Shown one piece after another: positions 12,316 to 37,396 of a stretch of 53,142 bases of DNA. A program made the position numbers and the translations under genes. Below the pieces are notes generated by a model, which saw only the letters and a program-made list of their open reading frames with translations, had not been told where the DNA came from and did no database searches. Origin of the DNA: Chryseosolibacter indicum (GTDB lineage Bacteria > Bacteroidota > Bacteroidia > Cytophagales > Cyclobacteriaceae); NCBI RefSeq assembly GCF_018598585.1, contig NZ_JAHESD010000041.1, positions 1-53,142 of the forward strand, written 5' to 3'. Numbering within the stretch: position 1 is the stretch's first letter; each line of letters begins with the position of its first letter.

Positions 12316-13221
12316 ATGAGCCAGTATTATTTAAGTCATCTAAAAGAACTAGAAGCAGAAGCAGTTTTTGTTATTCGTGAAGTTGTAGCACAATTTGAGA
12401 ATCCTGCGCTTCTTTTTTCAGGAGGGAAGGATTCGATTGTACTTGCGTACTTATCCCGTAAGGCGTTCCATCCCGCTAAAATCCCCTTCCCATTGGTACA
12501 TATTGATACGGGACATAATTTCCCTGAAACCATTGAGTACAGAGACTGGCTTGTTAATGAATTGGGCGTTAAGCTCATTGTAGGATCGGTTCAGGAAAGC
12601 ATTGATACCGGGCGGGCAAAGGAAGAAACAGGGTGGAATGCGAGTAGAAATGCACTGCAGACCGTGACCCTTCTCGATACAATAGAAAAATACAAGTTTG
12701 ATGCTGCTATGGGAGGAGCGAGAAGAGACGAAGAAAAAGCGAGGGCTAAAGAACGCTTCTTCTCTCACCGTGATGAATTTGGGCAATGGGACCCAAAGAA
12801 TCAGCGCCCTGAATTATGGAATCTTTTTAATGGACGTAAACATATAGGAGAGCATTTCCGTGTGTTTCCAATTTCTAACTGGACTGAGATGGACGTGTGG
12901 CAGTACATCTATTCGGAGAACATACCTATTCCCAAACTATACTTTGCGCACGAGCGGGAAGTGATTATCAGAGATGGCGCGATACTTTCAACCTCTCCAT
13001 GGTTAAAACTAAAGCCAGGAGAAGTGCCTGCAAGAAAGGTTGTAAGATTTAGAACGTGCGGCGATATGCCGATTACGGGAGCTGTAGAATCAGATGCTGA
13101 CTCGCTTGAGAAGATCATTGCTGAAGTAGCTTCTTCAAGAAAGACAGAACGAGGTACACGGGCGGATGATAAAAGGTCTGAAACATCTATGGAAGACCGG
13201 AAAAAGGCAGGGTATTTTTAG
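12316..13221 (+). CDS. cysD: Sulfate adenylyltransferase subunit 2 (CysD)
   Basis: A 301-residue ATP sulfurylase small subunit of the N-type ATP pyrophosphatase (PAPS reductase-like) fold. The PP-loop is SGGKDS at residues 35-40, followed by VHIDTGHNFPET, GGARRDEEKARAKER and the RVFPISNWTEMDVWQYI segment. It makes APS from ATP and sulfate together with the GTPase CysN. The usual neighbour cysN follows, but 505 nt away because a four-helix-bundle gene and heptad repeats are inserted between them. Length is standard and the C-terminus ends with the expected KKAGYF. Confidence 0.97.
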   Translation: MSQYYLSHLKELEAEAVFVIREVVAQFENPALLFSGGKDSIVLAYLSRKAFHPAKIPFPLVHIDTGHNFPETIEYRDWLVNELGVKLIVGSVQESIDTGRAKEETGWNASRNALQTVTLLDTIEKYKFDAAMGGARRDEEKARAKERFFSHRDEFGQWDPKNQRPELWNLFNGRKHIGEHFRVFPISNWTEMDVWQYIYSENIPIPKLYFAHEREVIIRDGAILSTSPWLKLKPGEVPARKVVRFRTCGDMPITGAVESDADSLEKIIAEVASSRKTERGTRADDKRSETSMEDRKKAGYF

Positions 13222-13265
13222 TTTAAGTTGCCAGGTGCCAAGTTAGCTAGTTGCCTGTAAGGTGT
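13221..13265 (+). repeat. GTT-phased repeat array on the left side of the four-helix-bundle gene
   Basis: After the cysD stop the sequence parses into gtttaa, gttgccag, gtgccaa, gttagcta, gttgcct, gtaag, gtgtcaa: units of about 7 nt beginning with GTT or GTN. It is less regular than the other arrays (units of 5-8). On the far side of the four-helix-bundle gene the same GTTGCC-type units occur on the opposite strand. Confidence 0.6.
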
Positions 13266-13284
13266 CAAAGTATAGATTTCAGTA

Positions 13285-13730
13285 ATGAAAAGTTATAGGG
13301 ATCTTGATATTTATAAAGAATCGAAAAGGCTTGCTGTTGAAGTTCATACCTTATCGTTAAAACTTTCCAAATTTGAATTATACGAAGAAGGAAGTCAGGT
13401 ACGTAGGTCTTCGAAAGCTGTCACTGCAATGGTTGTTGAAGGTTATGCAAGAAAAAGATACAAGGCCGATTTTATCCGGTATCTTACTTACGCGCAAGCT
13501 GAGTGTGATGAAACTATTGTTCATCTTGATTTTTGATTGCAACAGGATCTTCAACAGATTCAGCCAACACAGAGCAAGTAAGACTTGAATACGATAATCT
13601 TAGCAGGAAGATTAATAAGTTTTGTCAATGGGTTGAGACTAATTTTGAAGTAAATAGAAAGAAAAAACCGGCAACAGGGAACTGGCAACAGGTAACTGAA
13701 GATGATGATATTAAAGACTACACGGTATGA
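13285..13730 (+). pseudogene. Four-helix-bundle protein (23S rRNA IVS/S23 family), frameshifted
   Basis: The first 83 codons ([20 protein letters not shown] onward) match the small four-helix-bundle family first found in 23S rRNA intervening sequences. The frame stops in DETIVHLDF. One extra T in the run of five Ts at 13531-13535 would restore it and give LIATGSSTD and onward to a TGA at 13730, for 148 residues. The family is usually about 120. The excess tail (PATGNWQQV...) is translation of a heptad repeat array, and its stop overlaps the cysN start as ATGA. It sits between cysD and cysN, which are normally adjacent. Function is unknown. The indel may be real or a homopolymer sequencing error. 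Confidence 0.8.
13669..13696 (-). repeat. Four exact GTT heptads on the minus strand, right side of the four-helix-bundle gene
   Basis: Read on the minus strand, 13696 to 13669 is GTTACCT, GTTGCCA, GTTCCCT, GTTGCCG, all exactly 7 nt. This is the reverse orientation of the array at 13221-13265 and of all other GTT arrays in the window. Confidence 0.85.
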
Positions 13731-14983
13731 ATTATTTAAATAACCAGTTACTACGTTTTACTACTGCAGGAAGTGTAGATGATGGAAAAAGTACATTGAT
13801 TGGCAGATTATTATACGACAGTAAATCAATATTTGAAGATCAGCTGGAGGCAGTAGAGGCTTCGAGTGCAAAGAAGGGTTTTGATTATGTTGACTTGTCT
13901 TTGTTAACAGACGGACTAAAGTCAGAACGTGAACAAGGCATTACAATTGACGTGGCCTATCGTTACTTTGCTACTCCAAAAAGAAAATTCATCATTGCAG
14001 ATACACCGGGACATATTCAGTACACCAGGAATATGGTTACGGGAGCTTCCACGGCTAATCTTGCATTGATTTTAATTGATGCACGCAAAGGACTTGTAGA
14101 GCAAACTTTCAGGCATTCGTTCATTGCATCGCTCCTGAAGATTCCTCATATTATAGTTTGTGTTAACAAGATGGATCTGGTTAACTATGATGAAGCTGTA
14201 TTTGACAAGATCGTTGAAGATTATAAGGCATTTTCATCCAAGCTTGAAATATCCGATATTCAATTTGTACCTATCAGTGCATTAGCAGGGGATAATGTTG
14301 TTAACCGTTCTGAAAATATGAATTGGTACCAGGGAGCCACCCTCATGCATATGCTTGAGACGGTTCATATCGAAAGCGATTACAATCATATTGACAGCAG
14401 GTTCCCTGTTCAATATGTTATCAGACCACACTCTAAAGAGTACCATGATTTTCGTGGATATGCAGGTAGGATTGCAGGGGGGATTTTCAGACCCGGTGAT
14501 GATGTTCTAGTGCTTCCTTCAGGGTTTAATTCAAAAATTAAAAATATACGATTTGGCGATGAACAAATAGAAGAGGCGTTTGCACCGATGTCCGTTACAA
14601 TTACCCTCGAAGATGAGATCGACATTAGCAGAGGTGATATCATTGCTAAGCCTAACAATCACCCCCAAACAGAGCAGGATGTAGACATTATGTTGTGCTG
14701 GATGAATCAGCGACCAGTAAACCTTAATACAAAACTGTTTGTGAGACATACCACCCGGGAGGTAAAGTGCGTGTTGAAGGAAATTCAATATAAGCTGGAT
14801 ATTAACACATTGCATCGTGTTGAGGAGGTACAGCAATTGGTGATGAATGATATTGCACGGGTAAAGATAAGAACGGCACAACCGCTATTTATAGATAGTT
14901 ATAGAAAGAACAGAATAACTGGTAGTGTTATTCTTGTAGATGAAGGAACAAATGAGACTGTTGCAGCAGGGATGATCGTGTAA
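13727..14983 (+). CDS. cysN: Sulfate adenylyltransferase subunit 1, GTPase (CysN)
   Basis: A 418-residue EF-Tu-like GTPase subunit of ATP sulfurylase. G1 is GSVDDGKST (15-23), the G2 region is around GITIDVAYRYF, G3 is DTPGH (92-96) and G4 is NKMD (147-150), followed by two beta-barrel domains. There is no fused APS-kinase domain; that activity is the separate cysC gene upstream. GTP hydrolysis drives APS formation by CysD. The ATG at 13727 overlaps the stop of the (frame-corrected) four-helix-bundle gene by 4 nt. If that gene is truly frameshifted, translational coupling into cysN would be altered. Confidence 0.97.
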   Translation: MNYLNNQLLRFTTAGSVDDGKSTLIGRLLYDSKSIFEDQLEAVEASSAKKGFDYVDLSLLTDGLKSEREQGITIDVAYRYFATPKRKFIIADTPGHIQYTRNMVTGASTANLALILIDARKGLVEQTFRHSFIASLLKIPHIIVCVNKMDLVNYDEAVFDKIVEDYKAFSSKLEISDIQFVPISALAGDNVVNRSENMNWYQGATLMHMLETVHIESDYNHIDSRFPVQYVIRPHSKEYHDFRGYAGRIAGGIFRPGDDVLVLPSGFNSKIKNIRFGDEQIEEAFAPMSVTITLEDEIDISRGDIIAKPNNHPQTEQDVDIMLCWMNQRPVNLNTKLFVRHTTREVKCVLKEIQYKLDINTLHRVEEVQQLVMNDIARVKIRTAQPLFIDSYRKNRITGSVILVDEGTNETVAAGMIV

Positions 14984-14985
14984 TG

Positions 14986-15034
14986 GTTACATGTTTAAGG
15001 TTACAGTTTAAAGTTTTAAAGTTTAAGGTTGGAT
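14986..15034 (+). repeat. GTT heptad array containing the start codon of cysQ
   Basis: Units gttacat, gtttaag, gttaca, gtttaaa, gttttaaa, gtttaag, gttggat: five of exactly 7 nt, one of 6 and one of 8. The apparent TTG start of cysQ (15029) lies inside the last unit. Confidence 0.8.
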
Positions 15035-15790
15035 TTAAAAAGGTTACTTGATATCGCCATTGATGCGGCAGAAGCTGCATGTGTCGAAATTCTTGATGTT
15101 TATCATTCTGCTGATTTTGGAGCGGAAGCAAAGCAAGACAACTCTCCGCTTACCCTTGCTGATAAGCGGGCACATCTTAAAATCACTTCGATTCTTGCTA
15201 AGCGGGGTTTGCCAATTCTAAGTGAAGAAGGAAAAAATATACAGTATGAAGAACGCAAGAACTGGGAGTACTTCTGGATGGTAGATCCGCTTGACGGAAC
15301 CAAGGAGTTTATAAAAAGGAATGGCGAGTTTACAGTTAACATTGCGCTTATACACAGGACTAAAGCTGTGCTCGGTGTAGTAGCTATCCCTGTTACAGGG
15401 GCAGTTTATAGTGCTTTTGCCGGAGGAGGGGCATGGATAAAGAGAAAAGGAGCAATAAGTAAATTGCCAGTTCGAAGCACGGTTGACTTTAACAAGCCCG
15501 GAATAAGGGTAGTTGCATCTCGCTCACATATGAATACAGAAACGGAAGCATTTATCGGTAAATTGAGGGAGCCAATTCTTGTTTCGAAGGGAAGTAGCTT
15601 GAAGTTTATGATGTTGGCAGAGGGCGAAGCTGATGTTTATCCCAGATATGCACCTACTATGGAATGGGACACAGCGGCACCACACGTCATTATAAATGAA
15701 ATCGGACTTCAAGTGCTACATATTGATCAAGGTTCAGAGCTAATCTATAATAAGCCAGATCTTCTTAATCCATATTTTCTAGTTCAGTAA
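15029..15790 (+). CDS. cysQ: 3'(2'),5'-bisphosphate nucleotidase (CysQ)
   Basis: A 253-residue inositol-monophosphatase-fold enzyme that removes the 3'-phosphate from PAP (and PAPS), recycling the by-product of sulfotransfer or PAPS reduction. Metal-binding motifs are LSEE (64-67), DPLDGTKEF (86-94) and a C-terminal WDTAAPH. The product and context (after cysC, cysD, cysN) support CysQ rather than a general inositol phosphatase. No ATG fits; the TTG at 15029 gives the expected MDLKRLLDIAIDAA start. That TTG sits inside a GTT heptad array, so the ribosome-binding region is repeat-derived. Confidence 0.93.
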   Translation: MDLKRLLDIAIDAAEAACVEILDVYHSADFGAEAKQDNSPLTLADKRAHLKITSILAKRGLPILSEEGKNIQYEERKNWEYFWMVDPLDGTKEFIKRNGEFTVNIALIHRTKAVLGVVAIPVTGAVYSAFAGGGAWIKRKGAISKLPVRSTVDFNKPGIRVVASRSHMNTETEAFIGKLREPILVSKGSSLKFMMLAEGEADVYPRYAPTMEWDTAAPHVIINEIGLQVLHIDQGSELIYNKPDLLNPYFLVQ

Positions 15791-15825
15791 TTTCTTTCTG
15801 AGTTTCCATAACCAGGTGCAATCAT

Positions 15826-15833
15826 TAGATTTG
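15826..15833 (+). promoter_or_regulatory. Candidate -7 element for the WbpP-like epimerase gene
   Basis: TAGATTTG matches TAnnTTTG, 15 nt before the ATG at 15848. No clear -33 box is seen at the usual distance. Confidence 0.5.
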
Positions 15834-15847
15834 TAGTTTATACAAGT

Positions 15848-16810
15848 ATGGAAGGAAAACGAGTTATTATAACCGGGGGCGCTGGATTCATCGGTTCCAA
15901 TCTTACAGCGGCATTATTAGCAGATCCACGTGTAGAAAAAGTTCGGGTAATTGATGATTTCTCAAATGGATACAGATCAAACGTAGAAGAGTTTCTATCA
16001 CGTCCTAAATTTGATTTTGTAGAAGCAGACATCTGCGATTATGATGCGATGCTTAAGCACACTGAAGGCTTTCATTTAATATCTCATCAAGCAGCCCTGG
16101 GTTCAGTTCCGCGTTCTATTAAAGATCCCATGAGAAGTACTAAAGTTAACATTGATGGAACGGTCAATGTCATGCATGCTGCTGTTCAAAATAAGATAGA
16201 AAGGATAGTTCTTGCATGTTCTTCAAGTACTTACGGAGACAGCAAAGAATTACCTAAAGTTGAAGATAGAATCGGACGTCCATTAAGTCCATATGCCATT
16301 ACCAAATATGCCATGGAGCTTTATGCAGATGTCTTTAAAAAGACCTATGGATTGAACTATGTAGGGTTAAGGTACTTTAATGTGTTTGGACCAAAGCAGA
16401 GCCCGGATAACCCCTATGCAGCAGTGATACCATTGTTTTGTAAGGCGTTTCTGGAAGGAGAGCAGCCAACCATTAACGGAGATGGAATGCATAGTCGTGA
16501 TTTCACTTATGTGGACAATGCGGTGCATGCTAATATGCTGGCTTTATTTACAGATAATAGTGGAGCGTTAAATCAGGTTTACAACGTTGCCTGTGGCGAA
16601 CAAACAACTTTAAACGAAATGGTTAATATTCTCCAGCACGTATCAGGAAAGAATATCAACGCTATTTATGGGCCAGAACGAGCAGGGGATGTGAAGCATT
16701 CTAAAGCGGACATCACTAAAATAAAAAAACATTTAGGGTATGAACCAAAAGTCTTTTTTGAAGAAGGGTTAAGAAGCGTTTATGCCTGGTATAAGAAAAT
16801 CAACCTATAG
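15848..16810 (+). CDS. NAD-dependent sugar-nucleotide epimerase, WbpP/TviC-like (UDP-GlcNAc 4-epimerase)
   Basis: A 320-residue extended SDR. The Rossmann motif GGAGFIG is at 10-16 and the catalytic set is S125-S127 with Y149/K153 (YAITK). The HQAALGSVPRSI segment at about 80-91 is characteristic of the WbpP/TviC group, which interconverts UDP-GlcNAc and UDP-GalNAc (or their uronic acids), rather than of GalE. It would supply a HexNAc precursor for surface polysaccharide. The next gene converges on the minus strand and encodes a WlbA-like oxidoreductase, another UDP-HexNAc-type enzyme. Substrate is inferred from family motifs. Confidence 0.85.
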   Translation: MEGKRVIITGGAGFIGSNLTAALLADPRVEKVRVIDDFSNGYRSNVEEFLSRPKFDFVEADICDYDAMLKHTEGFHLISHQAALGSVPRSIKDPMRSTKVNIDGTVNVMHAAVQNKIERIVLACSSSTYGDSKELPKVEDRIGRPLSPYAITKYAMELYADVFKKTYGLNYVGLRYFNVFGPKQSPDNPYAAVIPLFCKAFLEGEQPTINGDGMHSRDFTYVDNAVHANMLALFTDNSGALNQVYNVACGEQTTLNEMVNILQHVSGKNINAIYGPERAGDVKHSKADITKIKKHLGYEPKVFFEEGLRSVYAWYKKINL

Positions 16811-16859
16811 AATTAGCCATACTTATTCGGTTTGTGCGGCAATATCAGTAATGGGAGAT

Positions 16860-16905
16860 GCACCTTTTATATTGTTAGCTTAGTAGGCGAACAATATACA
16901 GGTGC
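16860..16905. terminator. Bidirectional terminator-like hairpin between convergent genes
   Basis: GCACCT pairs with AGGTGC, and after a small internal loop TATATTGTT pairs with AACAATATA, with a 13-nt loop. It occupies the gap between the plus-strand epimerase gene and the minus-strand oxidoreductase gene. U-tracts are weak. Confidence 0.65.
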
Positions 16906-16913
16906 GCGCTTTA

Positions 16914-17822
16914 CTAAACGTTTCCCTTTGCGAGTTTTCTAATCTTGTAGACTATGTCAATAGAAGGCTTAGCGTCTACGAGACCAAAACCATTTCCTTT
17001 CAGGATTTCTTCATAACTTTTCGTATGCAGGTCTGTAAATCCTTCGCTAAATTCTATTTCTTCACCTTCAAGCTTCAGTGTCCTGTAAGTTCGTTTCCCC
17101 TTGTCTCTTACTTCTTGCGGGATATGATCATAATTGATACTGAGGAACCAAGTTACTTTAGCATGTTCGAGATGAAGAATACCTGATGCATGCTCCGACG
17201 AGATGGAGGAAAGCGTAACGTCTTGCACTTTACCAAAGATCCACATGAGCATGTCGAAGAAGTGTATACCTATGTTGGTAGCTATGCCGCCTGATTTAGA
17301 CAAATCACCTTTCCAGCTAATGTGATACCAGTTACCTCTTGACGTCATGTATTGAAGGTCGACGTCATAGATTTTATCTTTAGGTCCGTTTTTAATTTTC
17401 TCTCTCAGGGCAATAATCGAAGGGTGAAGTCTAAGCTGCAGGATTGTATTAATCTTTTTTCCTGTCTCAGATTCCAACTCCTGTAAAGCATCGATATTCC
17501 ATGGATTCAGAACCAGTGGTTTTTCACAAATGGCGTCAGCACCATAGCGAAGTGCATAACGAATGTGGGAGTCGTGCAGATAGTTAGGCGAACAGATAGA
17601 GATATAATCTACGTTGGCTCCTTTGCGTTTTATCTTATCCAAATGCCGGTCAAACCTCTCGAATTCAATAAAGAAGTCTGCATTGGGAAAATAGGAATCG
17701 AGTATTCCGACGTTATCATGTTTGTCTATAGCAGCTACAAGGTTGTTGCCTGTTTCTTTGATGGCCTTCAGGTGACGTGGAGCGATGAAGCCTGCAGCCC
17801 CTATTAAAGCAAAATTCTTCAT
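16914..17822 (-). CDS. Gfo/Idh/MocA oxidoreductase, WlbA/WbpB-like
   Basis: A 302-residue Gfo/Idh/MocA protein. It has an N-terminal Rossmann domain (FALIGAAGFIAPRHLKAI), EKP at 100-102, and the NWYHISWKGDLSKSGG and NIGIHFFDML segments. These mark the WlbA/WbpB subgroup, which oxidises C3 of UDP-GlcNAc-uronic acid on the way to UDP-2,3-diacetamido-2,3-dideoxy-mannuronic acid. The partner enzymes (6-dehydrogenase, aminotransferase, acetyltransferase, 2-epimerase) are not in this window. The gene is on its own on the minus strand, divergent from fcl, within a run of plus-strand nucleotide-sugar genes. Confidence 0.85.
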   Translation of the reverse strand: MKNFALIGAAGFIAPRHLKAIKETGNNLVAAIDKHDNVGILDSYFPNADFFIEFERFDRHLDKIKRKGANVDYISICSPNYLHDSHIRYALRYGADAICEKPLVLNPWNIDALQELESETGKKINTILQLRLHPSIIALREKIKNGPKDKIYDVDLQYMTSRGNWYHISWKGDLSKSGGIATNIGIHFFDMLMWIFGKVQDVTLSSISSEHASGILHLEHAKVTWFLSINYDHIPQEVRDKGKRTYRTLKLEGEEIEFSEGFTDLHTKSYEEILKGNGFGLVDAKPSIDIVYKIRKLAKGNV

Positions 17823-17977
17823 TTAATTAAAGTTGCGGATGGTTAAAACGGCGGGTGAAATTACAATTATCTCATCGTTTTTTACAAGTTTTGAATTTTT
17901 AAAGTAGTAAGAATAATCATTGAGACCGCAGGTAAGGTTAACCCAGGGGATTACCTTATTCTAGTATAGAAATAGTT

Positions 17978-20145: not shown

Positions 20146-20173
20146 GTTTAATGTTTAAAGTTGCATGTTTTAG
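20146..20173 (+). repeat. Four exact GTT heptads downstream of gmd
   Basis: GTTTAAT, GTTTAAA, GTTGCAT, GTTTTAG are contiguous and exactly 7 nt each, preceded by an 11-nt GTTCTGGATTT at 20135. The array lies between the gmd stop and its terminator, so it is probably transcribed. Confidence 0.8.
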
Positions 20174-29900: not shown

Positions 29901-32438
29901 GTAGGTGTCAACTGTAGGGCCTGCAGTACCTGCAGTACCAATATTTACCACACCTCCACGCTGAATGTATGCGAAACGGTTGTTATTTCCGAGGTATGTT
30001 GTACGGAGCTGCCATGCGTTTAACAGACCTCCTTCCATCACAAAAAGGCCCGCGCCTCCACCCAAAAGACCTCTTGAATATCCCAAGTTAAAGGTACCAT
30101 TGGTGATCCTCAACAAGCCGAAAACATATATCTGTCTTCCGTTGTCTCCTGTATCGGTTGTGTTTGTTGCCTGAATCGTTACATCGGGGCTATTTAACCA
30201 TAGTGCTCCTGTTTGAGGGATGGGCCATCCACCACCTATTCCACCACCGCCATTTATAACCAAGGACGGGATATTAATAAATCCTGTTAATTCTAATGTT
30301 CCATTTTTTATTGACAAAGCATTATCAGAAATGTAATTAGGAGCGGCACCTGACAAGTCTTGGTTATTAGGGCCAAAGAGTCTAAAGTTGGCGATACTTG
30401 TTGAATTGACTGTAATCTTTGCTTGTTGTCCCGAACCTTTGTCTACAATGAAGCGATAGAAGTCAGTCTGACCATTGCATTCGATCGATTGATTATTGAT
30501 GCCACTAAATGTTACGTTGACAGCATTTCCTCTAAGCGCCGCGTTAAACACGGCCCCAGATGTATAATTCCCCTCAGAGAGATTTACATCAGTATCATCA
30601 AAGAATTTGATGGAGCCATTATTGATAATGTTTCCATAGATGGTCAGGTTATGAGCGTTTGTTGGTTTCCCTATTCCAGCTCTGATTCTTCCAGCAGAAG
30701 ACACAGTAAGGTTGCCATTTAAATTGATTGTTCGCTGCGTGGCCGTATTGTTGTTTATTAGCCACGTTACTGTTCCTGTTCCAGACACCTGTGAAATACT
30801 AAGACTACCATTTATAGTAGGACTGTTTGCTGTTGTAAAGATTACTGGGTCATTTGTACTATTTGTAAGTAAGAGATTGTTATAAGCTAATTGTGTCGTT
30901 GGGAGTATACCTGATGTATTGTAATATTCGACAGTACCACCTACGAGAGGAGCTACGAAATTTGTGTAAACACCTGTAGGCAAAGAAATTCCATTAATAC
31001 GTAAAAGCCCGGCGCCGTCCACTGTTCCCAAATTGTGGCCAGTCGTTGTACTTGCATCCAGTGTTCCCCCTCCTTGAATAGTAAGAGTAGAAAGCGTAAT
31101 GCCATTAATGTCTGACGTTACAGTGAAACCATTTAGAATTATTACCTGATCTCCTGGCAAAGGGATCTGTGTTAATGGATTCTGAAGTGTTGTGCCCGAC
31201 GGATCCTGGGTCCATACCTCCCAGTTGCTCCAGAGGCCATTCTGGTAAGTATACCACACGGCTGAAGAACCAATAGAGAAATAAGTAGTTCCGTTAGATA
31301 AGGGTTTAGCAGCAGCAGCATTACCAGGCGCAATAAAAGAACCAACGCCAGGTGCGGTTCCTGGTACTATGCTTGTTGCGTTTGAATTGTTTGTATAACG
31401 AACCAACGAGTACGATGATAAGACATCTCCTATGGATACATCTGTTGCAGCATTATAAGAAAACGTTCCACCATAAAATGTAGTTAATGATGAATTGTTT
31501 GTAACCTTTAACCGGAACTGCCTCCTTAGCTGCCCAGGAACACTTTGATTATACAAGATTTTTATTGCTAACGCTGCATTATTCGAAGGGTTTGTCGTGA
31601 TGGTTGCAGAGGATAAATCCAAGGGGGTATACCCTCCATGTTCTGTGCCTATGGGATATAATATTCTCCACGGAGTTGTACTTGCAGTGGTAAGCCTTAT
31701 TAATTGACCTTCATCGGAAGACGACTCATCAACTTGAATGTAGCGGTTTGCTGATCCACCTGTAAAGGTTGCAGTAGCGCTGACGGTGATATTACTATTA
31801 GCATCGAGAACAACTCTTCCGTCGGATAAAAAGGTAATACTTTCAGATACGGTTATGCTACTGTTAACGAACACATCAACCGAAGAGCCGGCGCCTGGAT
31901 TCATCACAACCCTTTCAAAGGAAAACGTACCGTTTCCACTGATGACCTGATCCTGTTCAAAAACACTTCCTGTAAAATTCAAATAGTGTGTTGAGGCACC
32001 ATTGGTTAGGTTAACAATATTATCATTTGTAAGGTGACCTGTAAGGTTTAGGTTGTGATTCCCAGCAGTTCCCCCCGATCGTAAGGTTCCTCCGGGCTTA
32101 ATAATGATATCGCCATTGATTGTAAGAGCTGTGGCAGTCGTACCATTACCGTACGTAAATATTCCTCCCAATGAATTTTCATTTATTACCAAACCTGCAT
32201 AAGTGGCTGTAGTGCCACTGGGAAATGTAACATTGTGACCATTACCAATATTTAAAATAGTAGTAGAACCAGGTGTCGCCGTGGCTCCTGTTCTGGTAGG
32301 AGAGGTATACCAGGTAATAGCTCCGACATTACCCGTACCTCCACTATAGAGGTTAGTTTGACTAAAAATTGAGAATGAAATCGAATAAAAAACCAAAAAA
32401 AATAGAAGTACTCTTCCACCAAAAGCAGATCGCGCCAT
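24000..32438 (-). CDS. Giant (2812-residue) T9SS-secreted surface protein with superrepeats
   Basis: It starts with a signal peptide (about 1-27). It ends with a type IX sorting domain (about 2728-2812) opening SWRVYPNPVS and closing with the LPAGIYILII strand. A fibronectin-like segment (about 2620-2725, LPVTWLSFTGKRNDYSIELKW) precedes it. The bulk is Thr/Asn/Gly/Ser-rich with short hydrophobic strands of beta-helix type. A head module (W-N-W, then GTL, PAGDYT/F and GGTVEY) recurs near residues 392, 1299 and 2213. A P-hydrophobic-G...YYW-type module recurs near 261, 1169, 2061 and 2483, giving a superrepeat of about 900 residues. The likely role is adhesion or gliding/biofilm at the cell surface (inference). 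It is monocistronic, with its own promoter and terminator. Confidence 0.93.
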   Translation of the reverse strand: MARSAFGGRVLLFFLVFYSISFSIFSQTNLYSGGTGNVGAITWYTSPTRTGATATPGSTTILNIGNGHNVTFPSGTTATYAGLVINENSLGGIFTYGNGTTATALTINGDIIIKPGGTLRSGGTAGNHNLNLTGHLTNDNIVNLTNGASTHYLNFTGSVFEQDQVISGNGTFSFERVVMNPGAGSSVDVFVNSSITVSESITFLSDGRVVLDANSNITVSATATFTGGSANRYIQVDESSSDEGQLIRLTTASTTPWRILYPIGTEHGGYTPLDLSSATITTNPSNNAALAIKILYNQSVPGQLRRQFRLKVTNNSSLTTFYGGTFSYNAATDVSIGDVLSSYSLVRYTNNSNATSIVPGTAPGVGSFIAPGNAAAAKPLSNGTTYFSIGSSAVWYTYQNGLWSNWEVWTQDPSGTTLQNPLTQIPLPGDQVIILNGFTVTSDINGITLSTLTIQGGGTLDASTTTGHNLGTVDGAGLLRINGISLPTGVYTNFVAPLVGGTVEYYNTSGILPTTQLAYNNLLLTNSTNDPVIFTTANSPTINGSLSISQVSGTGTVTWLINNNTATQRTINLNGNLTVSSAGRIRAGIGKPTNAHNLTIYGNIINNGSIKFFDDTDVNLSEGNYTSGAVFNAALRGNAVNVTFSGINNQSIECNGQTDFYRFIVDKGSGQQAKITVNSTSIANFRLFGPNNQDLSGAAPNYISDNALSIKNGTLELTGFINIPSLVINGGGGIGGGWPIPQTGALWLNSPDVTIQATNTTDTGDNGRQIYVFGLLRITNGTFNLGYSRGLLGGGAGLFVMEGGLLNAWQLRTTYLGNNNRFAYIQRGGVVNIGTAGTAGPTVDTYPRFALPYNECTFEMSGGTINVANPTATGTSVNDGILIFAASSNISVSGGTVNAILPASNINFNVCTTAPFYNFNISKAGAAGGSALRLDAITFNDNTTYTRAAQPLVILNNLTLLTGNNPTLNCNNNNLTVGGNFDVQTGTTHTSGTNTLTFNGTGPQNWINNGTTNALNNVVVNKTDILQLSGSSAFPNIAGLTLTQGTLDDGGKALNVTSTLSNSAIHTGTGSITATGPTTISGVNGTFGNLNISTNSTVTVSGNQTVTGVLRLLNTNSSLDIGSNTFTVLGNIYSDATTGVAFSATKRILTNGFRNDGGLTRKGSAGNLLFPVGTATAPYSPITINVTASTHGNITVRPVEIAHPNANPVGQELKYYWRVTSTGYAGITAVSHNNYTFGNTALLAGTLTAYKPARYNQSNFTWYVGSTYNATGTTAIPNFSFGATIDGEYTAGNITPGLISVYYSRQSGNWNSNTTWSFAPCTASGTCGTAVPAGSFPCPTCPVVIGDDNNSHIVTIEANNRSSGSLMIHMNSTLDCSTFTGLNFGVNNGEAVAGRGTLRIASNIFPAGDFSNFIGSAGGTVEWYGATRTIVTTGAAPQSISLNTYYNLIINPNAGQTITLPPTDLTIYNNLVKSGTGTVTTNNGAARKITIQKDFTIKAGSFTTASGNSTNFTIAGNTTIDNGATFAPSNNTATTHTITTEGSIINNGTLTLRNGTHVSNLIFTGTADAAFTGTNVLASTTLNLITLDKGTSQTPKLTFNVAGAVASLATGWLTLLDGNFIFDKASPVFTLQTAAATYSIPSTAKLTVNSGTLQIIGPAVGNAGDLLLAGTLEVLGGDVIIGGSANNFHNDIEYASAGTPTILVTGGSLYVNGTIRRPLTTLSGSLVYNQSGGQVTVGGRNASAQNSRGVFEIENNAGSSFSLTGSGVLTINRSAATPTVPSAYADIYINPETSSVSPTGTIAIGLATGLVTSPLSINIVPPIGNFTIVGNTADQRVDMRSSNLYTTGTLSINAKTTLLTNSLDVTIGGDLTIDGTYNGSGNTTTFNGSSLQLAKLSATSTFQNITINKPSNIVTLSGVSPVINNLNILSGTLDVANLGLTVQGNITNNSYQIGVGAIVMSGSTTVQDITSNNGSFTNLTIAGNASLKDVRLSGNLTIEGELTFSTDNRYLTIGSNLLSFGVNGSVSSASALRLIRTNGAASDLGVQKYWSLGPGTFTYHLGVGSGTSIFYTPVSLTLNVSSAGTLTVIPVNQRHPTSNLGSNEQILNYYWIVSRGSNLTYSNTGNHSYRCPSGLITGLGGTLIAGYLDLSDPSGWITSSHGGIATTSSTTAAMVYTNLLDTNLPIPDNVYHYTIGTVNTLPNPILPIFSRLDNSSVADTNVGGNWNNASSWTTASNGHGASLSGVPPLGIPVVILPNSRINMNVNARSAITSKIDGLLVLGTTSQHNLGKITGTGTLRASTNTFPAGDYTDFVAASGGTIEYVAPVTMNNRSTYNNVSFIGTGAVAMTNTDLTLNGSLNIASGVTVSNTNNRNITISRNWTNNGTYIAGTGTVTFAGTVDQSMSGATGLYNLSVNKPSGNVVLDGVGSTSVANNLTLTKGHVISSANNKITLGSSSTITGGSATSFISGPVTKGMNALTSQTYPLGSVTANYYRPASISNTSAPDTWTLEYFPVTPKSGGYDNLSMNTSNILTVSDYEYWIIERIGTTTGGVTLTYNTGSYKAPSVGVVSDLRVARWDGTRWDLPPGGGVSSQSGTNITGTVSITNVTNFSPFTLASTTMPSPLPVTWLSFTGKRNDYSIELKWQTSQETNSEKFEIERSSDGTAFMKVGEKSAAGFSRTASSYSFDDSHTFPNQRYYYRLKQLDFDGKSTYSEVIVINSLNIQTKNSWRVYPNPVSINTVFTLMPTEDKFLDKIEVSIISVNQTTIHTAVGTIEKVNKEMEAVREKLPAGIYILIIAEGNRKDIVKICIQ

Positions 32439-32457
32439 AACAAGTGAGGTATTTGAA

Positions 32458-32465
32458 CAAAAGTA
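32458..32465 (-). promoter_or_regulatory. Candidate -7 element for the giant surface-protein gene
   Basis: On the minus strand TACTTTTG matches TAnnTTTG, 19 nt before the ATG at 32438. No clear -33 TTG is found at 19-24 nt further upstream. Confidence 0.5.
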
Positions 32466-32934
32466 CCAAGTACTCTCTTTAATGGCCGCTTCAGGTAATA
32501 AAACTAAGTACTTTTAAGTAAGCGATGCTTTGTACGTAATTGGCCAAAAGTATTCCAGAATTATTAACTAGCTTAAATAGTAAGTAATACGTAAGGCAAT
32601 AATTGAGCATTTTCGAACAAGACTAAAAGCCTACTTTTTCAAGCAATTGTCTATGAAAGAACAACCATCTTAACTGTAATTGCCATAAAAAACCAAACAA
32701 AGTATAGCGACAGTTATTAATTAAATTTGTTAAAAAGTAAAAGGTAGCACCAAAAGCTATTCCCTTATTGAAACAAAAAATATCATTATGAGAATGTATT
32801 ATTTAGGGTGGAATTTGAAGAATTAAGTGTTGTTCTCTTAGTCGTGTAGATAAGAACGCCCAAGATTCGCGGTTTACGGTTTTGTTGCCAAAGTTATACG
32901 AAGATCATTTTCTTAATGTTGCTTTTTCCTTAAG

Positions 32935-32961
32935 TGGTAGTTCGTGATTCTCGGACTCGTT
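32935..32961 (+). repeat. 27-nt direct repeat, copy 1
   Basis: Begins TGGTAGTTCGTGATTCTCGG and continues to ACTCGTT. It is identical to 33210-33236, 275 nt downstream. Confidence 0.92.
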
Positions 32962-33131
32962 CTAACAACATTATTATGGAGTATATACACAAGAACCGGG
33001 TAGCCGCAGGGTTCGTAGATCAGCCAGAAGCCTGATTGTATAGCAGTGCCAGGGACTATGCTAATACTGCAAAGGAATTAATTGATTTGGTGTTTATTGG
33101 ATGATTGGTGTTTGGATTTCTCGGGATATCG

Positions 33132-33190
33132 CTCGTTCTACGTCAGCGTGACGCTGACATACTATACGTCCAAGCGGACGCTTGAACGAG
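33132..33190. repeat. Nested inverted repeats (branched hairpin element)
   Basis: An outer pair CTCGTTC (33132-33138) and GAACGAG (33184-33190) encloses two internal hairpins. One is GTCAGCGT-G-ACGCTGAC (33142-33158), a perfect 8-bp pair around one base. The other is CAAGCG-GA-CGCTTG (33171-33184), or alternatively CGTCC-AAGC-GGACG; it abuts or shares one base with the outer arm. The design resembles REP/BIME-type elements or a small cruciform. Confidence 0.75.
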
Positions 33191-33209
33191 ACGCTTGCGC
33201 CAAATTGTA

Positions 33210-33236
33210 TGGTAGTTCGTGATTCTCGGACTCGTT
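33210..33236 (+). repeat. 27-nt direct repeat, copy 2
   Basis: Identical to 32935-32961. It begins 20 nt after the nested hairpin element ends. Confidence 0.92.
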
Positions 33237-33461
33237 AATCAGAGTGCGAAATTCAAGGTCATTAAGTTGAAGGTTTTGAATAAGTATTATTAAGCTCATT
33301 CGGCGGTCTTCGTCTTCTATTACTTTTTGCTTGGTGAAAAAGTAAATAAAAATCAAGACACAAAAATGCTTCAGCTGCACAAGTCGTATTGACAAGGAAA
33401 GAAGGACGGATTTTGAGTTGTTGATGTTGAATTTTAAAATCAGGGACAAACATAGAAAGAG

Positions 33462-33489
33462 GGATGCCATCTCACTAGGGATGACATCC
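33462..33489 (-). terminator. Terminator of the 265-residue hypothetical gene
   Basis: On the minus strand GGATGTCATC pairs with GATGGCATCC (10 bp with one U-G), loop CCTAGTGA, followed by CTCTTTC. It begins 13 nt after the stop. It contains GTGAGATGGCAT, also found in the terminator at 20183. Confidence 0.7.
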
Positions 33490-33502
33490 TTTAAGTTACT
33501 TA

Positions 33503-34300
33503 TTAAACAACTGAGACAATTTTAAAGGCATTGCCTTGCTTTAAAGGATATAAAGCATCATCATCTTCTTGTTTATAGAACATAATTCCTACGCCATGCA
33601 TAACACTGACTTTATCGGTAAGCACCGGATTGTTTGCGAGCGAGGCTTCAAGCGTTACTGACACGTTTTCTATTGTGTTGATGTCAAAGTATTCGCTGTA
33701 AGAAACTGCATATAAACCATTAAGTTTAGGTGCAACGGGATTAAATTTGGTAGTCGCCTTATCGAATGCGAAATCCGAAATGGTGCCCATGGCGTACATA
33801 AACCTCAAATGTGTTGCATCTTTAGGTGGTTTAAAGCCTTCTGATAAGGAGAACTCGGGAATGGAAAGCTTCCCGCTTATTCTATCAGGAGCCGCCTCTA
33901 TTTCCGGCTTGTGCTTGAAAATGGAAGTGAATTTAATTGTTTCATTAAACTCAAAGTTTTCCAGTAAGCCTTTGTTTAAGGAAATTTCAATTGGACGTTC
34001 GCCACGGACTCCTTTGCTTTTACTATGCACTGACCGAATTAGCTTCAATGTTCTTGAAGTAAGACGGTGATCTGCAACTTTTAGCGCAGGCATGAGTGCC
34101 TCTCTGCACGCTTTCGCAGCTATTGCACTTCCTGAAAATTCACGGTTATTCTCCCGTGTACGTTTAAATGCGGGATCGTTCATGATCCTGTTTTTATCCG
34201 GACCCTTGGCCATACGTACAAAGTTTTCGCCATTTGACTGATAGAAGGATACGCCATCCAGGTTGCCCTTCACTTTAATTAAACCAATTTGTCTACTCAT
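33503..34300 (-). CDS. Conserved hypothetical protein of Bacteroidota type
   Basis: 265 residues, no signal peptide or membrane segment. The N-terminus (RQIGLIKVKGNLDGVSFYQS, then GPDKNRIMNDPAFKRTRENN) resembles a family of unnamed proteins common in Bacteroidota, remembered only as hypothetical. The first part (1-125) is basic and helical. The second part (about 130-265) alternates hydrophobic strands and looks beta-rich. No catalytic motif is visible. It stands alone on the minus strand between repeat-bearing gaps, with its own candidate promoter (34392) and terminator. Function is unknown. Confidence 0.8.
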   Translation of the reverse strand: MSRQIGLIKVKGNLDGVSFYQSNGENFVRMAKGPDKNRIMNDPAFKRTRENNREFSGSAIAAKACREALMPALKVADHRLTSRTLKLIRSVHSKSKGVRGERPIEISLNKGLLENFEFNETIKFTSIFKHKPEIEAAPDRISGKLSIPEFSLSEGFKPPKDATHLRFMYAMGTISDFAFDKATTKFNPVAPKLNGLYAVSYSEYFDINTIENVSVTLEASLANNPVLTDKVSVMHGVGIMFYKQEDDDALYPLKQGNAFKIVSVV

Positions 34301-34316
34301 AAAATAAAATTTTAAA

Positions 34317-34338
34317 GTTTAAATGTTACATGTTTTAA
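34317..34338 (+). repeat. Short GTT repeat run in the leader of the hypothetical gene
   Basis: GTTTAAAT, GTTACAT, GTTTTAA: units of 8, 7 and 7 nt on the plus strand, antisense to the 33503-34300 gene and just before its start. GTTTAAA and GTTACAT also occur in the array at 14986-15034. Confidence 0.55.
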
Positions 34339-34391
34339 AATCAACATTGCTCAGTTCGCAGCGCGCTTGCTATTAATCAATGTTCATGTTT

Positions 34392-34399
34392 CAAAAGTA
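34392..34399 (-). promoter_or_regulatory. Candidate -7 element for the 265-residue hypothetical gene
   Basis: On the minus strand TACTTTTG matches TAnnTTTG and would give a leader of about 85 nt. Within that leader AACATTG...CAATGTT (34344-34385) could form a hairpin with a GC-rich inner part. Confidence 0.45.
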
Positions 34400-34834
34400 G
34401 ATTGGTGGTGTGCAACCAGACTGCCCACCTCAAATGAGTAATGAATTTTTTTTAAACTTTTTTATAAGTGCTTGATATTCAATTGTACTAATTTTTAGCT
34501 CGTTAATGCTTCAGTCACACGGATCTGGATCAGCCCGTTTCAATAGCTGGCTATCAGGATGCCGGTCGATGCATCGGTTTGTTATTAAAGATTTTCAGTC
34601 CTCTTGATTATGTGAAGCGGATCATCATGGGGTCAGGCTGAGAATTAGGTCATGGCTTCCCATGGCTCATCCATGACTCGTCTATGACTCATCCATGGCT
34701 TATCTATGGCTTATCTATGACTTTGGAGCAGTAAAACTTTCTGTTTTCAAAATTCTATAAAAAAAGGTCTTCGATTGTTTTTGACACAATTTGACAATTG
34801 CTCAAGATACTTTTGCTTAAAAACCTAATATTTT
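34400..34834 (+). other. Gap upstream of the WYL regulator, containing an 11-nt array
   Basis: No gene is visible. The main feature is the tandem array at 34661-34726. The left part has T/A runs (34441-34470), and the right part (34727-34834) should hold the WYL gene promoter, though no TAnnTTTG stands out. Confidence 0.5.
34661..34726 (+). repeat. 11-nt tandem repeat array, unit YATGRCTYRTC
   Basis: Six consecutive 11-nt units: catggctcatc, catgactcgtc, tatgactcatc, catggcttatc, tatggcttatc, tatgactttgg, preceded by a 10-nt relative at 34651. Substitutions are mostly C/T or A/G transitions at fixed positions. It has the same period as the array at 4915 with a different sequence, and ends 108 nt before the WYL regulator ATG. 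Confidence 0.9.
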
Positions 34835-35839
34835 ATGGCATCATCTAAGATACCGTATCCCCGTTTCAGAATCATTAATGATTGTTTACGGAGTCGTGTT
34901 AAGCGCTACTGGACTATTAAAGAATTTATTCAAAAACTGGAGGAAGAAGACATTTTTGTTAAAGAAAGGACTGTAAAGAGTGATCTCGCACTTATGCGAA
35001 ATGACGAGATTATAGGTTATAAAGCTCCTATTGTTTACTGTCCCAGAAATAGAGGTTATTATTATGCTGATCCGGAATACTCCATTGATGTGATTCCTCT
35101 TAATGATGAAGAGATACGCTCTTTAACGTTTGCTGTTAATATGGTCAACAGATATCGAGGAGCGCAGGTGGTAAAACAATTTGAGGGAACGCTTCATAAA
35201 GTATCAAAAATTGTTCAGCAACTTAAGAATGCAAGTGGTCCCACACGTTCTTTTATTGGCTTTGAGAACGTGCCCTATTACAAGGGGATGGACTTTTTCG
35301 ATATTATACTAGAAGCTGTAGACGAAAAACGTGCTTTGGTGATACATTATAAAAGATTTCAAAAGGAGCGCGGTGATGTTCATATCTTTCATCCTTATCT
35401 TATGAAGGAGTATATGAACCGATGGTATGTACTGGGTTATAGTGAGCGAAGAAAATGGGTTATAACACTAGGACTTGACAGAATTGAAAAAATAGAACCA
35501 TCGACATCGGATTTCATAGTAAATACTTTCCTTGATGCGGAAACATATTTTAATAATACACTCGGCATAACACACACACCTGGAAAAGCAGAAGATATTG
35601 TACTACGGTTTTCTTCCACACAGGCAAATTATATTAAGACACAATATCTACATCATAGTCAGGAGACACTTGAAGAGGATGAAGATGGGTTGAAGATTGT
35701 GCTGAAGCTGAAGATAAATTTTGAACTCATATCAAAGTTGATGGCTTTTGGTCCGGATGTTGAAGTTTTGAAACCCATTAAGCTTAGAAATAAAATAACC
35801 GAATTGCTTGACAGGGCAAGGGGTGTGTATGGTCAGTAA
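34835..35839 (+). CDS. WYL-domain transcriptional regulator (YafY-like)
   Basis: 334 residues. An N-terminal helix-turn-helix region (about 8-75, with TIKEFIQKLEEE and ERTVKSDLALMRN) is followed by a linker and the WYL domain (about 145-215). The WYL domain contains ALVIHYKRF, HPYLMKEYMNRWYVLGYS and LGLDRIEKIE, where RWYVLGY is the WYL strand. The C-terminal WCX-like part extends to 330. Such proteins are ligand-sensing regulators; in several bacteria they control DNA-damage, CRISPR or phage-defence genes. No defence genes are adjacent. The 11-nt phased array upstream could be a binding platform, but that is inference. Confidence 0.9.
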   Translation: MASSKIPYPRFRIINDCLRSRVKRYWTIKEFIQKLEEEDIFVKERTVKSDLALMRNDEIIGYKAPIVYCPRNRGYYYADPEYSIDVIPLNDEEIRSLTFAVNMVNRYRGAQVVKQFEGTLHKVSKIVQQLKNASGPTRSFIGFENVPYYKGMDFFDIILEAVDEKRALVIHYKRFQKERGDVHIFHPYLMKEYMNRWYVLGYSERRKWVITLGLDRIEKIEPSTSDFIVNTFLDAETYFNNTLGITHTPGKAEDIVLRFSSTQANYIKTQYLHHSQETLEEDEDGLKIVLKLKINFELISKLMAFGPDVEVLKPIKLRNKITELLDRARGVYGQ

Positions 35840-35851
35840 TTGTTCAGGAAT

Positions 35852-35925
35852 GTTTAAGGTTCGAGGTTAGATGTACTGGGCTGTGTTTAAAGTTTCAGGT
35901 TACAGGTTGTAATGTTTTTGTTTTT
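35852..35925 (+). repeat. GTT heptad array between the WYL and UpxY genes
   Basis: GTTTAAG, GTTCGAG, GTTAGAT, GTACTGG (four contiguous heptads), a 5-nt GCTGT, then GTTTAAA (starting 35885), GTTTCAG and GTTACAG, with an extra base before GTTTCAG absorbed by the preceding run, then GTTGTAAT and GTTTTT. Most units are 7 nt. The array fills the gap upstream of the UpxY promoter region. Confidence 0.75.
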
Positions 35926-35959
35926 GGTTTTTTAGGGCATCTTTGCTTGTGGGAACATT

Positions 35960-36469
35960 ATGCGAAATATAAGTAAGCATTGGTATGTATTCTATACGAA
36001 GAGCCGGCATGAGAAAAAGGTTTATGACCTTTTAATGAAGGCTGGTTATGATGTCTTTCTTCCGATGCAAAAGGTGATGCGGCAATGGAGTGACCGGAAG
36101 AAAAAAGTAGAAGTACCTCTTTTTAATTCTTACATCTTCGTTAAGACTTTTGAACACGATCTTATCTCTGTGTTAAAGATTCCGGGTGTTGCATGGACGA
36201 TTTTGTATAACAGCAGACCTGCCATTCTCCGTGAGGAGGAGTATGAGGTGGTTCAACGTTTTATTACTTCCGGACTTTTTATTGAAACGACAGCGTTGAC
36301 AGAAGATTTTACTCCCGGTGATAAGGCACAAGTATTGGATGGACCGCTGGCGGGAACAACGGGAATCCTGTCAGGAAGTGCCAATCAACAAAAGTTAAGT
36401 GTAGTACTGGAAGGGATAAATCAGGTTGTAAGAGTTGAGATAAAAGGTGCATTACTAAAAAAAATCTGA
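35960..36469 (+). CDS. UpxY-type transcription antiterminator (NusG paralogue)
   Basis: 169 residues. The NusG N-terminal (NGN) domain (about 7-100) contains HWYVFYTKSRHEKKVYDLL, VFLPMQKVMRQWSDRKKKV and PLFNSYIFVK. The C-terminal KOW domain (about 116-165) contains FTPGDKAQVLDGPLAGTTGI. In Bacteroides, UpxY proteins bind the leader of one capsule locus and prevent early termination across it. Here the gene opens the polysaccharide locus: a winged-helix gene and then wza, wzc and 12 kb of transferases follow. No UpxZ-like repressor is seen. A near-consensus -7 (CATCTTTG, 35938-35945) precedes it. Confidence 0.92.
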   Translation: MRNISKHWYVFYTKSRHEKKVYDLLMKAGYDVFLPMQKVMRQWSDRKKKVEVPLFNSYIFVKTFEHDLISVLKIPGVAWTILYNSRPAILREEEYEVVQRFITSGLFIETTALTEDFTPGDKAQVLDGPLAGTTGILSGSANQQKLSVVLEGINQVVRVEIKGALLKKI

Positions 36470-36594
36470 ATAAAACAAGGTCACTTGTCACATCCTGCTT
36501 TGAGACCTTAACATTCTATTTCCACGCCTTATACGCATGTACGGCTGTTTGGGTTTCGATAGTTTTTCCTGATTTTTTCACAATTTTTACTTGT

Positions 36595-36602
36595 TACCTT
36601 TG
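36595..36602 (+). promoter_or_regulatory. Candidate -7 element, distal promoter of the winged-helix gene
   Basis: TACCTTTG matches TAnnTTTG, 60 nt before the GTG at 36662. Transcription from it would run through the whole symmetric element at 36618-36658. Confidence 0.5.
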
Positions 36603-36617
36603 TGTAATTTTTAGGAT

Positions 36618-36658
36618 ACAAAAGTGAGTAAATAAACTACTCGCTTTCATACTTTTGT
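36618..36658. promoter_or_regulatory. Symmetric operator-like element overlapping a second -7 box
   Basis: ACAAAAGT-GAGTA, spacer AATAAAC, TACTC, 8 nt, then ACTTTTGT: two nested inverted repeats (8 bp and 5 bp). The right arm overlaps TACTTTTG (36650-36657), an exact TAnnTTTG match only 4 nt before the GTG start. A protein bound here would block that promoter and the start codon. The gene behind it encodes a winged-helix protein, so autoregulation is a reasonable guess. Confidence 0.65.
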
Positions 36659-36661
36659 GGT

Positions 36662-37207
36662 GTGATAGAAAACCTTATAACCTCACGAACCCGCGTTAAG
36701 ATGCTATTCCGCTTCTTTCTGAATAGTCATTCCAAGGCCCACCTGCGCGGGCTTGCTGATGAGTTTGGTGAGTCTACCAATTCTGTTCGTCTTGAATTAA
36801 ATAATCTCTGTAAAGCTGGCTATCTCATCTCAACAGGTGAAGGCAATATCATTCGCTATAGTGCGAATGTTGATCATCCGCTTTATCCGGAACTTCAAAA
36901 GATAGCTCACAAGTGTTTGGGTCTTGATAAGATCGTTGACAACGTTATCAATCGTTTAATAACGAGGATTGGTGAACTTGATTCAGCTTTTATCACAGGT
37001 GATTATGCGGATGGAAAGGACACGGGGATTATAGACCTTGTGCTGGTGGGTAAACTGAGTATGCAGCAGGTGAGGGGTTATGTGCAAAAGGCGGAGAAGA
37101 TGATCGATCGGAAGATCAGGTTACTTGTGCTCAGCGCAGAGGAGTTTGAAAAGAACAAGAAGAATCTTGCTTCTGAGACTGCGCTTTATTTGTGGCAGAA
37201 GGATTAA
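36662..37207 (+). CDS. Winged-helix regulator with nucleotidyltransferase-like C-terminal domain
   Basis: 181 residues from a GTG start. An ArsR-like winged-helix domain (about 1-72) contains TRVKMLFRFFLNSHSKAHLR, EFGESTNSVRLELNNLCKAG and a wing. The C-terminal part (about 85-181) has the GDYADGKDTGIIDLVLVG pattern, which recalls the minimal nucleotidyltransferase (MNT-like) core, with Asp residues present but no clear GSxxxG loop. Similar genes sit near UpxY and wza in Bacteroidota polysaccharide loci. I know no tested function. Its promoter carries a symmetric element. A heptad array of 120 nt separates it from wza. Confidence 0.8.
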   Translation: MIENLITSRTRVKMLFRFFLNSHSKAHLRGLADEFGESTNSVRLELNNLCKAGYLISTGEGNIIRYSANVDHPLYPELQKIAHKCLGLDKIVDNVINRLITRIGELDSAFITGDYADGKDTGIIDLVLVGKLSMQQVRGYVQKAEKMIDRKIRLLVLSAEEFEKNKKNLASETALYLWQKD

Positions 37208-37276
37208 GGTTCTTCTCCATATGTTTTTATTGCCTGCTCTTTCCGCGATGGGACTGAGGAGGCGGAGCTCCGCTTC

Positions 37277-37396
37277 GTTCAAGGTTCTAGGTTGTTAAAA
37301 GTTCTGTGTTCTGGGTTCAAGGTTCTGAGTTCAAAGTTCTGGGTTCTGAGTTTGAGGTTTTGGGTTCTTTGTTGGGTTTAAAGTTTGAGGTTAAAA
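37277..37396 (+). repeat. Large GTT heptad array upstream of wza
   Basis: About 16 units over 120 nt, nearly all exactly 7 nt: GTTCAAG, GTTCTAG, a 10-nt unit, GTTCTGT, GTTCTGG, GTTCAAG, GTTCTGA, GTTCAAA, GTTCTGG, GTTCTGA, GTTTGAG, GTTTTGG, GTTCTTT, a 5-nt GTTGG, GTTTAAA, GTTTGAG, GTTAAAA. It ends 2 nt before the -7 box of wza, so the -33 region lies inside the array. A 12-bp palindrome GCGGAGCTCCGC (37262-37273) borders its left side. Confidence 0.9.

Follow-up and report, generated by a model that had tools for sequence, protein, structure and literature searches.

What owns the runs of seven-nucleotide (7-nt) units that lie scattered between the genes of a 53,142-nt stretch of the Chryseosolibacter indicum genome (contig NZ_JAHESD010000041.1, positions 1 to 53,142; hereafter the window), and what has a gene of the 23S_rRNA_IVP family (hereafter IVP), placed between two of these runs, to do with them? 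Our best reading is that these heptad arrays are the arms, or probable leftovers of the arms, of small elements whose full form carries an IVP gene. We regard the association between heptad arrays and IVP genes as firmly established and practically certain; that the elements make up a family in which the IVP protein acts on the arrays is, in our judgement, probable, with appreciable room for doubt.

The initial annotation of the window had listed seven gaps with GTT-phased 7-nt units and had held these to be neither coding repeats nor simple microsatellites; both statements stood, and no named element that we encountered fits the arrays as a whole. We found nine exact 7-nt-spaced GTT chains of at least three units on the two strands, against a mean of 0.52 and a maximum of 3 in 100 dinucleotide-preserving shuffles of the window; chains of at least four units numbered 4 against 0.01, and those of at least five units 2 against 0. 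The autocorrelation that had been called for, run as counts of GTT pairs on the + strand of 26 gaps hand-picked from the list of open reading frames (ORFs; 4,971 bases), gave 30 pairs at lag 7 and 22 at lag 14 versus 3-5 at lags 4-6 and 8-13. GTT, counted with its complement AAC, also headed the 60 non-homopolymer triplets for chains of at least three units (9, the runner-up reaching 4). The phase held genome-wide: the pattern GTT(N4GTT)x4, which counts one long array several times, matched 26+14 times in the source genome (G000, 5.8 Mb) versus 1+1 for the same pattern read backwards, and it was matched in 41 of 59 genomes, G000 included. The backward pattern is frequent also in G001 and G003, where it is an unclean control; we take its abundance there to represent heptad arrays of other words. 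The 7-nt period is indeed general; GTT, however, represents one of many word classes. It is the triplet conserved best in 51/314 arrays, and the contiguous conserved core of the arrays is hardly above chance (2.873 versus 2.860, p=0.023); GTT as an obligatory core is thus weak. Rfam returned nothing over the arrays or the scanned IVP loci, its sole matches being three tRNAs and one group II intron.

Two of the listed sites belong together, which the initial annotation had overlooked. The arrays at 13221 (+) and 13669 (-) are inverted arms, left and right, around a gene of PF05635 (23S_rRNA_IVP) in the cysD-cysN gap (67.3 bits versus the Pfam cut-off of 33.8, E 1.7e-18). This gene is decayed, as its match (13297-13572), with one internal stop, and a separate reading of the three frames show, and it lies outside any 23S rRNA gene, the Rfam matches in the window being tRNAs alone. 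The inverted match between the two arms is modest, with a score of 23 that equals the 95th percentile of mismatched flanks. Taken singly, two of the listed sites are weak: the arm at 13221 is degenerate, some of its steps differing from 7, and at 34317 two GTT units lie 8 nt apart, although 34307-34334 scores as period 7. The start of cysQ had been placed within a heptad; the TTG at 15029 does sit inside one and is plausible as a start, not proven. Five arrays (14986, 20146, 34307, 35852 and 37277) have no inverted partner within 350 nt. The features are as follows.

13223..13258, + strand: IVP element, left arm; its heptads are degenerate and of GTTGCCA type, and its alignment with the reverse-complemented right arm scores 23.
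13285..13536, + strand: open part of the decayed 23S_rRNA_IVP gene (PF05635, E 1.7e-18); the similarity carries on out of frame.
13667..13700, - strand: right arm of the IVP element from the arm alignment, GTTACCT GTTGCCA GTTCCCT GTTGCCG, with a 5-unit GTT chain at 13696 (-).
14986..15030, + strand: solo array in the cysN-cysQ gap, 3-unit GTT chain, period-7 stretch 14998-15030.
20146..20173, + strand: solo array after a GDP-mannose dehydratase gene, 4-unit GTT chain.
34307..34334, + strand: weak solo array, period-7 stretch with score 11.
35852..35912, + strand: solo array flanked by genes for a WYL-domain and a NusG-like protein, GTT chains of 3 (35852) and 4 units (35885).
37277..37396, + strand: the largest of the solo arrays, located upstream of a polysaccharide export gene, GTT chains of 3 (37277), 12 (37294) and 3 (37376) units.
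16615, - strand: intragenic GTT chain of 3 units, which looks like chance.

The pairing of arrays and IVP genes extends well beyond this locus. We gathered 178 IVP genes in 162 loci from relatives, from the best 80 named genome contigs among the matches listed and from 22 viral contigs; 7 genes lacked enough flank, leaving 171, and removal of 4 duplicates left 167. In the adjoining 105 nt, self-match at lag 7 reached 0.394 before the gene and 0.385 after it (171 genes), with echoes at 14, 21 and 28, the values being 0.27-0.30 at lags 2-6 and 8-13, and 0.25 and 0.27 for lag 7 in stretches some 800-900 nt away; a period-7 array was present at one or more flanks of 106/171 genes. Period 8 was seen in 17/171 of these flanks. 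Each left flank was then scored against the reverse-complemented right flank of the same gene, the cuts being set at 23 and 34 (95th and 99th percentiles of mismatched pairs): the median was 32 for own flanks (n=167) versus 16 for flanks of different elements, and 121/167 genes scored above 23 and 68/167 above 34, the corresponding figures for control ORFs being 1/163 and 0/163. In direct orientation 19/167 genes passed the 99th percentile. The left side is rich in G (27%) and poor in C (13%), and the arms have a median length of 4.6-4.7 units (75 left, 89 right), short arms escaping detection.

This pairing occurs in several phyla. Scores above 23 were reached by 39/60 genes from relatives in the order, 13/18 from viral contigs and 54/69 from named loci outside a list of non-Bacteroidota; on that list (17 loci, 15 usable), which rests on record titles and consists mostly of metagenome bins, 13/15 passed with the best IVP per locus, L199 and L216 failing. 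The flanks of L173 (Limnohabitans) match Flavobacterium fluvii L174 throughout, so that L173 is probably misbinned; Geobacter sp. AOG1 (L185) has inverted flanks under a record title without a metagenome-assembled genome label. Among 26 plasmid records with an IVP match, seven cyanobacterial plasmids were read: four have inverted arms (scores 63, 60, 56 and 32) and three have arrays on both sides that stay below the cut, one of them with long direct arrays. A single-query IVP search of the INPHARED phages gave no match. In L274, on a Pseudanabaena plasmid, cas6 and cas4 enclose an IVP gene that has long direct heptad arrays to its left and right, and in the five genomes of L279, L280, L281, L282 and L284 IVP genes occupy both gaps of a fadB-fadA-acyl-CoA dehydrogenase operon, recalling the cys and nrd junctions described below.

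The two arms of one element usually carry the same word, and this word is specific for each element (e.g. AGTAGGG, AACAGGG, GTTGCCA, GCTGCAA, TCGGAAC or TATTGAG). Where the published word TAACTGA (TCAGTTA on the opposite strand) is concerned, the relatives G056, G073, G115 and others have arrays of GTTATCA. A heptamer common to the left and the inverted right arm was found in 58 of the 76 IVP genes with arrays on both sides; in direct orientation the count fell to 14/76, and when left and right arms were taken from different elements (5,700 combinations) such a heptamer occurred in 2.1%. Common heptamers occurred in about 2.5% of pairs of non-orthologous elements with 30-50% IVP identity, and in 28% of 155 pairs from sites with similar flanks and 50-70% identity. 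The words thus change fast, yet on both arms together.

Array abundance also tracks IVP across genomes. For 291 genomes of the order, with both counts taken over by eye, the GTT pattern was matched in 173/211 IVP carriers versus 13/80 non-carriers (Fisher 1.8e-25), the mean number of matches being 49.2 and 0.94, respectively (Spearman 0.66). Permuting the labels within families or genera (5,000 trials) never yielded the observed value (p=0.0002). Genus g77 is an example, with 0, 0, 0, 0, 0 and 2 matches in six IVP-less genomes and 55, 5 and 12 in three carriers. Likewise, 400 kb of four IVP-less genomes contained no period-7 array. Two enzyme families were rejected as drivers: PF01797 (Y1 transposase) is present in 16/16 array-rich genomes and also in 13/15 IVP-less ones, and PF00078 (RVT_1 reverse transcriptase) has no match in 6/16 array-rich genomes and, in a seventh, only one below the cut-off.

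Arrays without an IVP gene often show the geometry and polarity of the arms, another aspect that the initial annotation had passed over, arrays in relatives being frequently arranged as convergent pairs. In 377 kb of G002 we counted 75 period-7 arrays, any of the other periods in the range 4-13 giving 0-3; 400 kb of G149 held 23 of period 7, 17 of period 8 (L404-L423) and five of period 4. Counted per array, at a slightly lower array threshold and with a partner window of 350 nt, an inverted partner was present for 59/90 arrays in G002 (4 in a random stretch), 25/30 in G149 (1) and 3/10 in G099 (0), and the G-rich arm lay on the left rather than the right in ratios of 48:6, 25:0 and 3:0. IVP-less arrays are mostly convergent pairs in the two well-sampled genomes, G002 and G149, and in G002 such bare pairs far outnumber IVP genes. 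The paired arrays of G002 lie between convergent genes in 29 cases, divergent genes in 4 and co-directional genes in 36; its solo arrays, few in number, show no sense bias (3 sense, 12 antisense). In G235 and G099, with one IVP gene each, the solo arrays seen use the words of that gene; G145 fits this in part and G053 does not. Contigs G235:C21 and G235:C77 (L357, L439) start inside long heptad arrays, which probably break assemblies, and the array counts are thus lower bounds.

One gene junction can be empty, bare-armed or occupied by arms and an IVP gene. Measured up to a fixed CysN motif in 28/30 loci (two lack the motif), the cysD-cysN junction of five relatives spans 46-59 nt; in G029, where it has bare arms, it spans 233 nt, and in G000, G026, G001 and G002, where it contains an IVP gene, 541-812 nt. 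Different IVP genes occupy this one junction, the identity being 76% between G000 and G026 and 24-26% between G000 and G001 or G002; G016 contains what looks by eye like another IVP remnant. A second series comes from Nostoc plasmids; of eight plasmid records taken up after a Nostoc search, two with different neighbours (L304 and L306) are left out. The junction after traM is empty in three (50-52 nt; C057 p057_A, p057_K and UHCC 0302), carries bare arms in one (260 nt; ATCC 53789), arms and an IVP gene in two (489-496 nt; N. edaphicum and C052) and other palindromic material in one (340 nt; C057 p057_H). C052 and p057_A have identical matched flanks, and a single gap of exactly 7 nt separates the two IVP-filled forms. 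Another IVP element of N. edaphicum is placed in antisense orientation between nrdA and nrdB; the corresponding gap in Calothrix NIES-4105 measures 40 nt. The duplicate plasmids of Calothrix share a region wider than the element, in which no boundary is readable.

Taken together, a full element would consist of two arrays facing each other, with the G-rich strand on the left and its complement on the right, and a 23S_rRNA_IVP gene between them. Gene-less copies, many more in number, would persist as bare inverted pairs, and solo arrays, to which most of those in the window belong, as IVP-less copies or remnants. Such elements, mostly intergenic and built of arrays of one 7-nt word, may move or form afresh in new gaps, while the protein encoded by the IVP gene may recognise the arrays in 7-nt steps and act in trans on IVP-less copies. 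TRAP, a ring binding evenly spaced triplets, offers an analogy for an IVP ring on 7-nt units. The IVP structures 2gsc (XCC0516) and 2rld have five chains each, and XCC0516 is described as five four-helix bundles in the title of Lin 2006, as cited in the accessible part of PMC10053308. It is tempting to speculate further on a mobile element class spread over several phyla and lacking any known transposase, recombinase or reverse transcriptase, in which a ring-forming protein of the IVP/Avd fold and host enzymes write or copy arrays of 7-nt words at both ends, renew the word jointly and serve IVP-less copies in trans, the heptamer repeats of Cyanobacteria, Xanthomonas and Beggiatoaceae being its traces; this wider proposal is tentative, and we would sooner doubt it than defend it.

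Several observations weigh against reading the arrays as arms of IVP elements. Period-7 flank arrays were also found at 24/163 control ORFs, which come from the same loci in array-rich genomes, and 46/167 IVP genes failed the inverted-flank cut; at the genome level, 38/211 IVP carriers have no GTT-pattern match and G276 has 25 matches without an IVP match. The words follow the IVP sequence only above 70% identity (a common heptamer in 15/18 pairs, versus 8.3% of 805 pairs at 50-70%). The order of units is not mirrored between the arms (54 pairs, p=0.21, at low power, the units being alike); this argues that neither exact pairing of a stem nor simple copying of an arm is what is kept. A gap of one whole heptad, of the kind that the initial annotation had proposed to look for, was present in one of five near-relative pairs, the traM pair above, the other four being gapped by 1-6 nt or not at all. 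A target-site duplication was not visible by eye at the traM and nrd junctions, where the flanks have diverged or been replaced in part, and the arrays have no known copying enzyme. As far as the accessible text of the published work goes, TAACTGA repeats are nearly all direct and often precede start codons (PMC4679880), the GGGGATT repeats of Nostoc (Anabaena) are rarely paired, and Xanthomonas heptamers have generally no tie to mobile elements (both PMC4692102).

Some of these observations would be expected if replication slippage merely favoured 7-nt units that accumulate in gaps without a dedicated protein, IVP being incidental. Among the longer simple repeats of many genomes, heptamers are reported to be the most frequent (Mrazek 2007, cited in PMC4679880), one near-relative pair does differ by exactly 7 nt, and unmirrored unit order fits as well. 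Plain repeats should be gene-independent, however, and the arrays depend on IVP within genera, place the same word inverted on both sides of IVP genes and combine convergent pairing with a fixed polarity, which makes slippage unlikely. Nearly the same standing, perhaps a shade lower, we give to the view that the arms are RNA processing hairpins like those of the intervening sequence (IVS) of 23S rRNA, i.e. stems cut by RNase III between genes and kept for regulation rather than spread. The protein family is that of the ORFs of rRNA IVSs, which are located in RNase III-cut stems (PMC4990558, in its accessible part); IVP genes lie in gaps of the fad and cys operons, and the arms of three cyanobacterial elements, joined via an artificial loop, give strong predicted stems. 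Yet exact pairing is seemingly not kept, the unit order being unmirrored, the element in nrdAB is antisense, solo arrays have no sense bias in G002, and empty forms of the same junction exist.

The remaining alternatives concern what makes the pairs. If some other factor did so and IVP genes settled in the loops by chance, the excess of bare pairs over IVP genes in G002 and the different IVP subfamilies at one junction would follow readily; but IVP-less genomes are nearly without GTT arrays, within genera too, and we consider IVP as mere cargo quite improbable. Least probable of all, in our view, are repeats of the repetitive extragenic palindromic (REP) kind moved by a Y1 transposase of the REP-associated tyrosine transposase (RAYT) type, or copies made by a reverse transcriptase. 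The paired intergenic arrays of G002 avoid divergent genes in a REP-like manner, and IVP is related to Avd, a protein of diversity-generating retroelements (DGRs), according to the accessible part of PMC10053308; the distributions of PF01797 and PF00078 given above contradict both enzymes.

Beyond the arrays, two 11-nt tandem repeats lie at 4916-4973 and 34662-34722 of the window (5.3 and 5.5 copies), their period differing from that of the heptads, and six period-11 stretches occur in further pieces of G000. The minus strand of the window between 24000 and 32438 holds an open frame of 2812 aa.

If the arrays are indeed the arms of IVP elements, scattered heptamer repeats would gain one common owner. 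To our knowledge IVP proteins (four-helix bundle, S23) are common and structurally solved and have no known function outside rRNA. Their pairing with the arrays joins two orphans, namely these proteins and the heptamer repeats that appear ownerless in the accessible parts of the 2007 and 2015 work (PMC4679880, PMC4692102). The elements change the gaps within core operons (cys, fad, nrd) and, if they move, do so without Y1 transposases or RVT_1, the two enzyme families tested. Among the open-licence papers that our searches listed, none ties heptamer repeats to IVP, and such a link may have been published elsewhere; four helix bundle genes figure in a paper on Flavobacterium columnare, with no heptamers in its accessible text (PMC5524665).

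Comparison with known systems sets these elements apart while revealing partial likenesses to each. The 23S rRNA IVS with an S23p/IVP ORF likewise has an IVP gene between complementary arms, but the elements described here lie between protein genes, with arms of 7-nt arrays, and 17 loci gave no rRNA match in Rfam. Cyanobacterial short tandemly repeated repetitive (STRR) sequences are also heptamer repeats. The published TAACTGA, GGGAATC and GGGGATT repeats are likewise tandem 7-nt units, mostly intergenic, and are described, in the accessible text, as single words without an IVP gene; in Xanthomonas GGGAATC forms 70 and 75 convergent pairs in two genomes (accessible part of PMC4692102). REP sequences with RAYT and miniature inverted-repeat transposable elements (MITEs) likewise comprise many gene-less inverted copies in gaps and few gene-bearing ones, but Y1 transposase does not track heptad arrays, and in place of the fixed terminal inverted repeats of MITEs the ends are arrays whose words differ between elements, with no target duplication seen. 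The DGR accessory protein Avd is a related small four-helix protein, a likeness to IVP noted in PMC10053308 (accessible part), and the bAvd model exceeded its cut-off in 1/6 IVPs scanned, but RVT_1 is missing in 6/16 array-rich genomes. Heptad-armed IVP elements lack a tested defining feature of IVSs, of REP/RAYT, of MITEs, of DGRs and of plain slippage repeats, although both of their parts, heptamer repeats and IVP, are already known.

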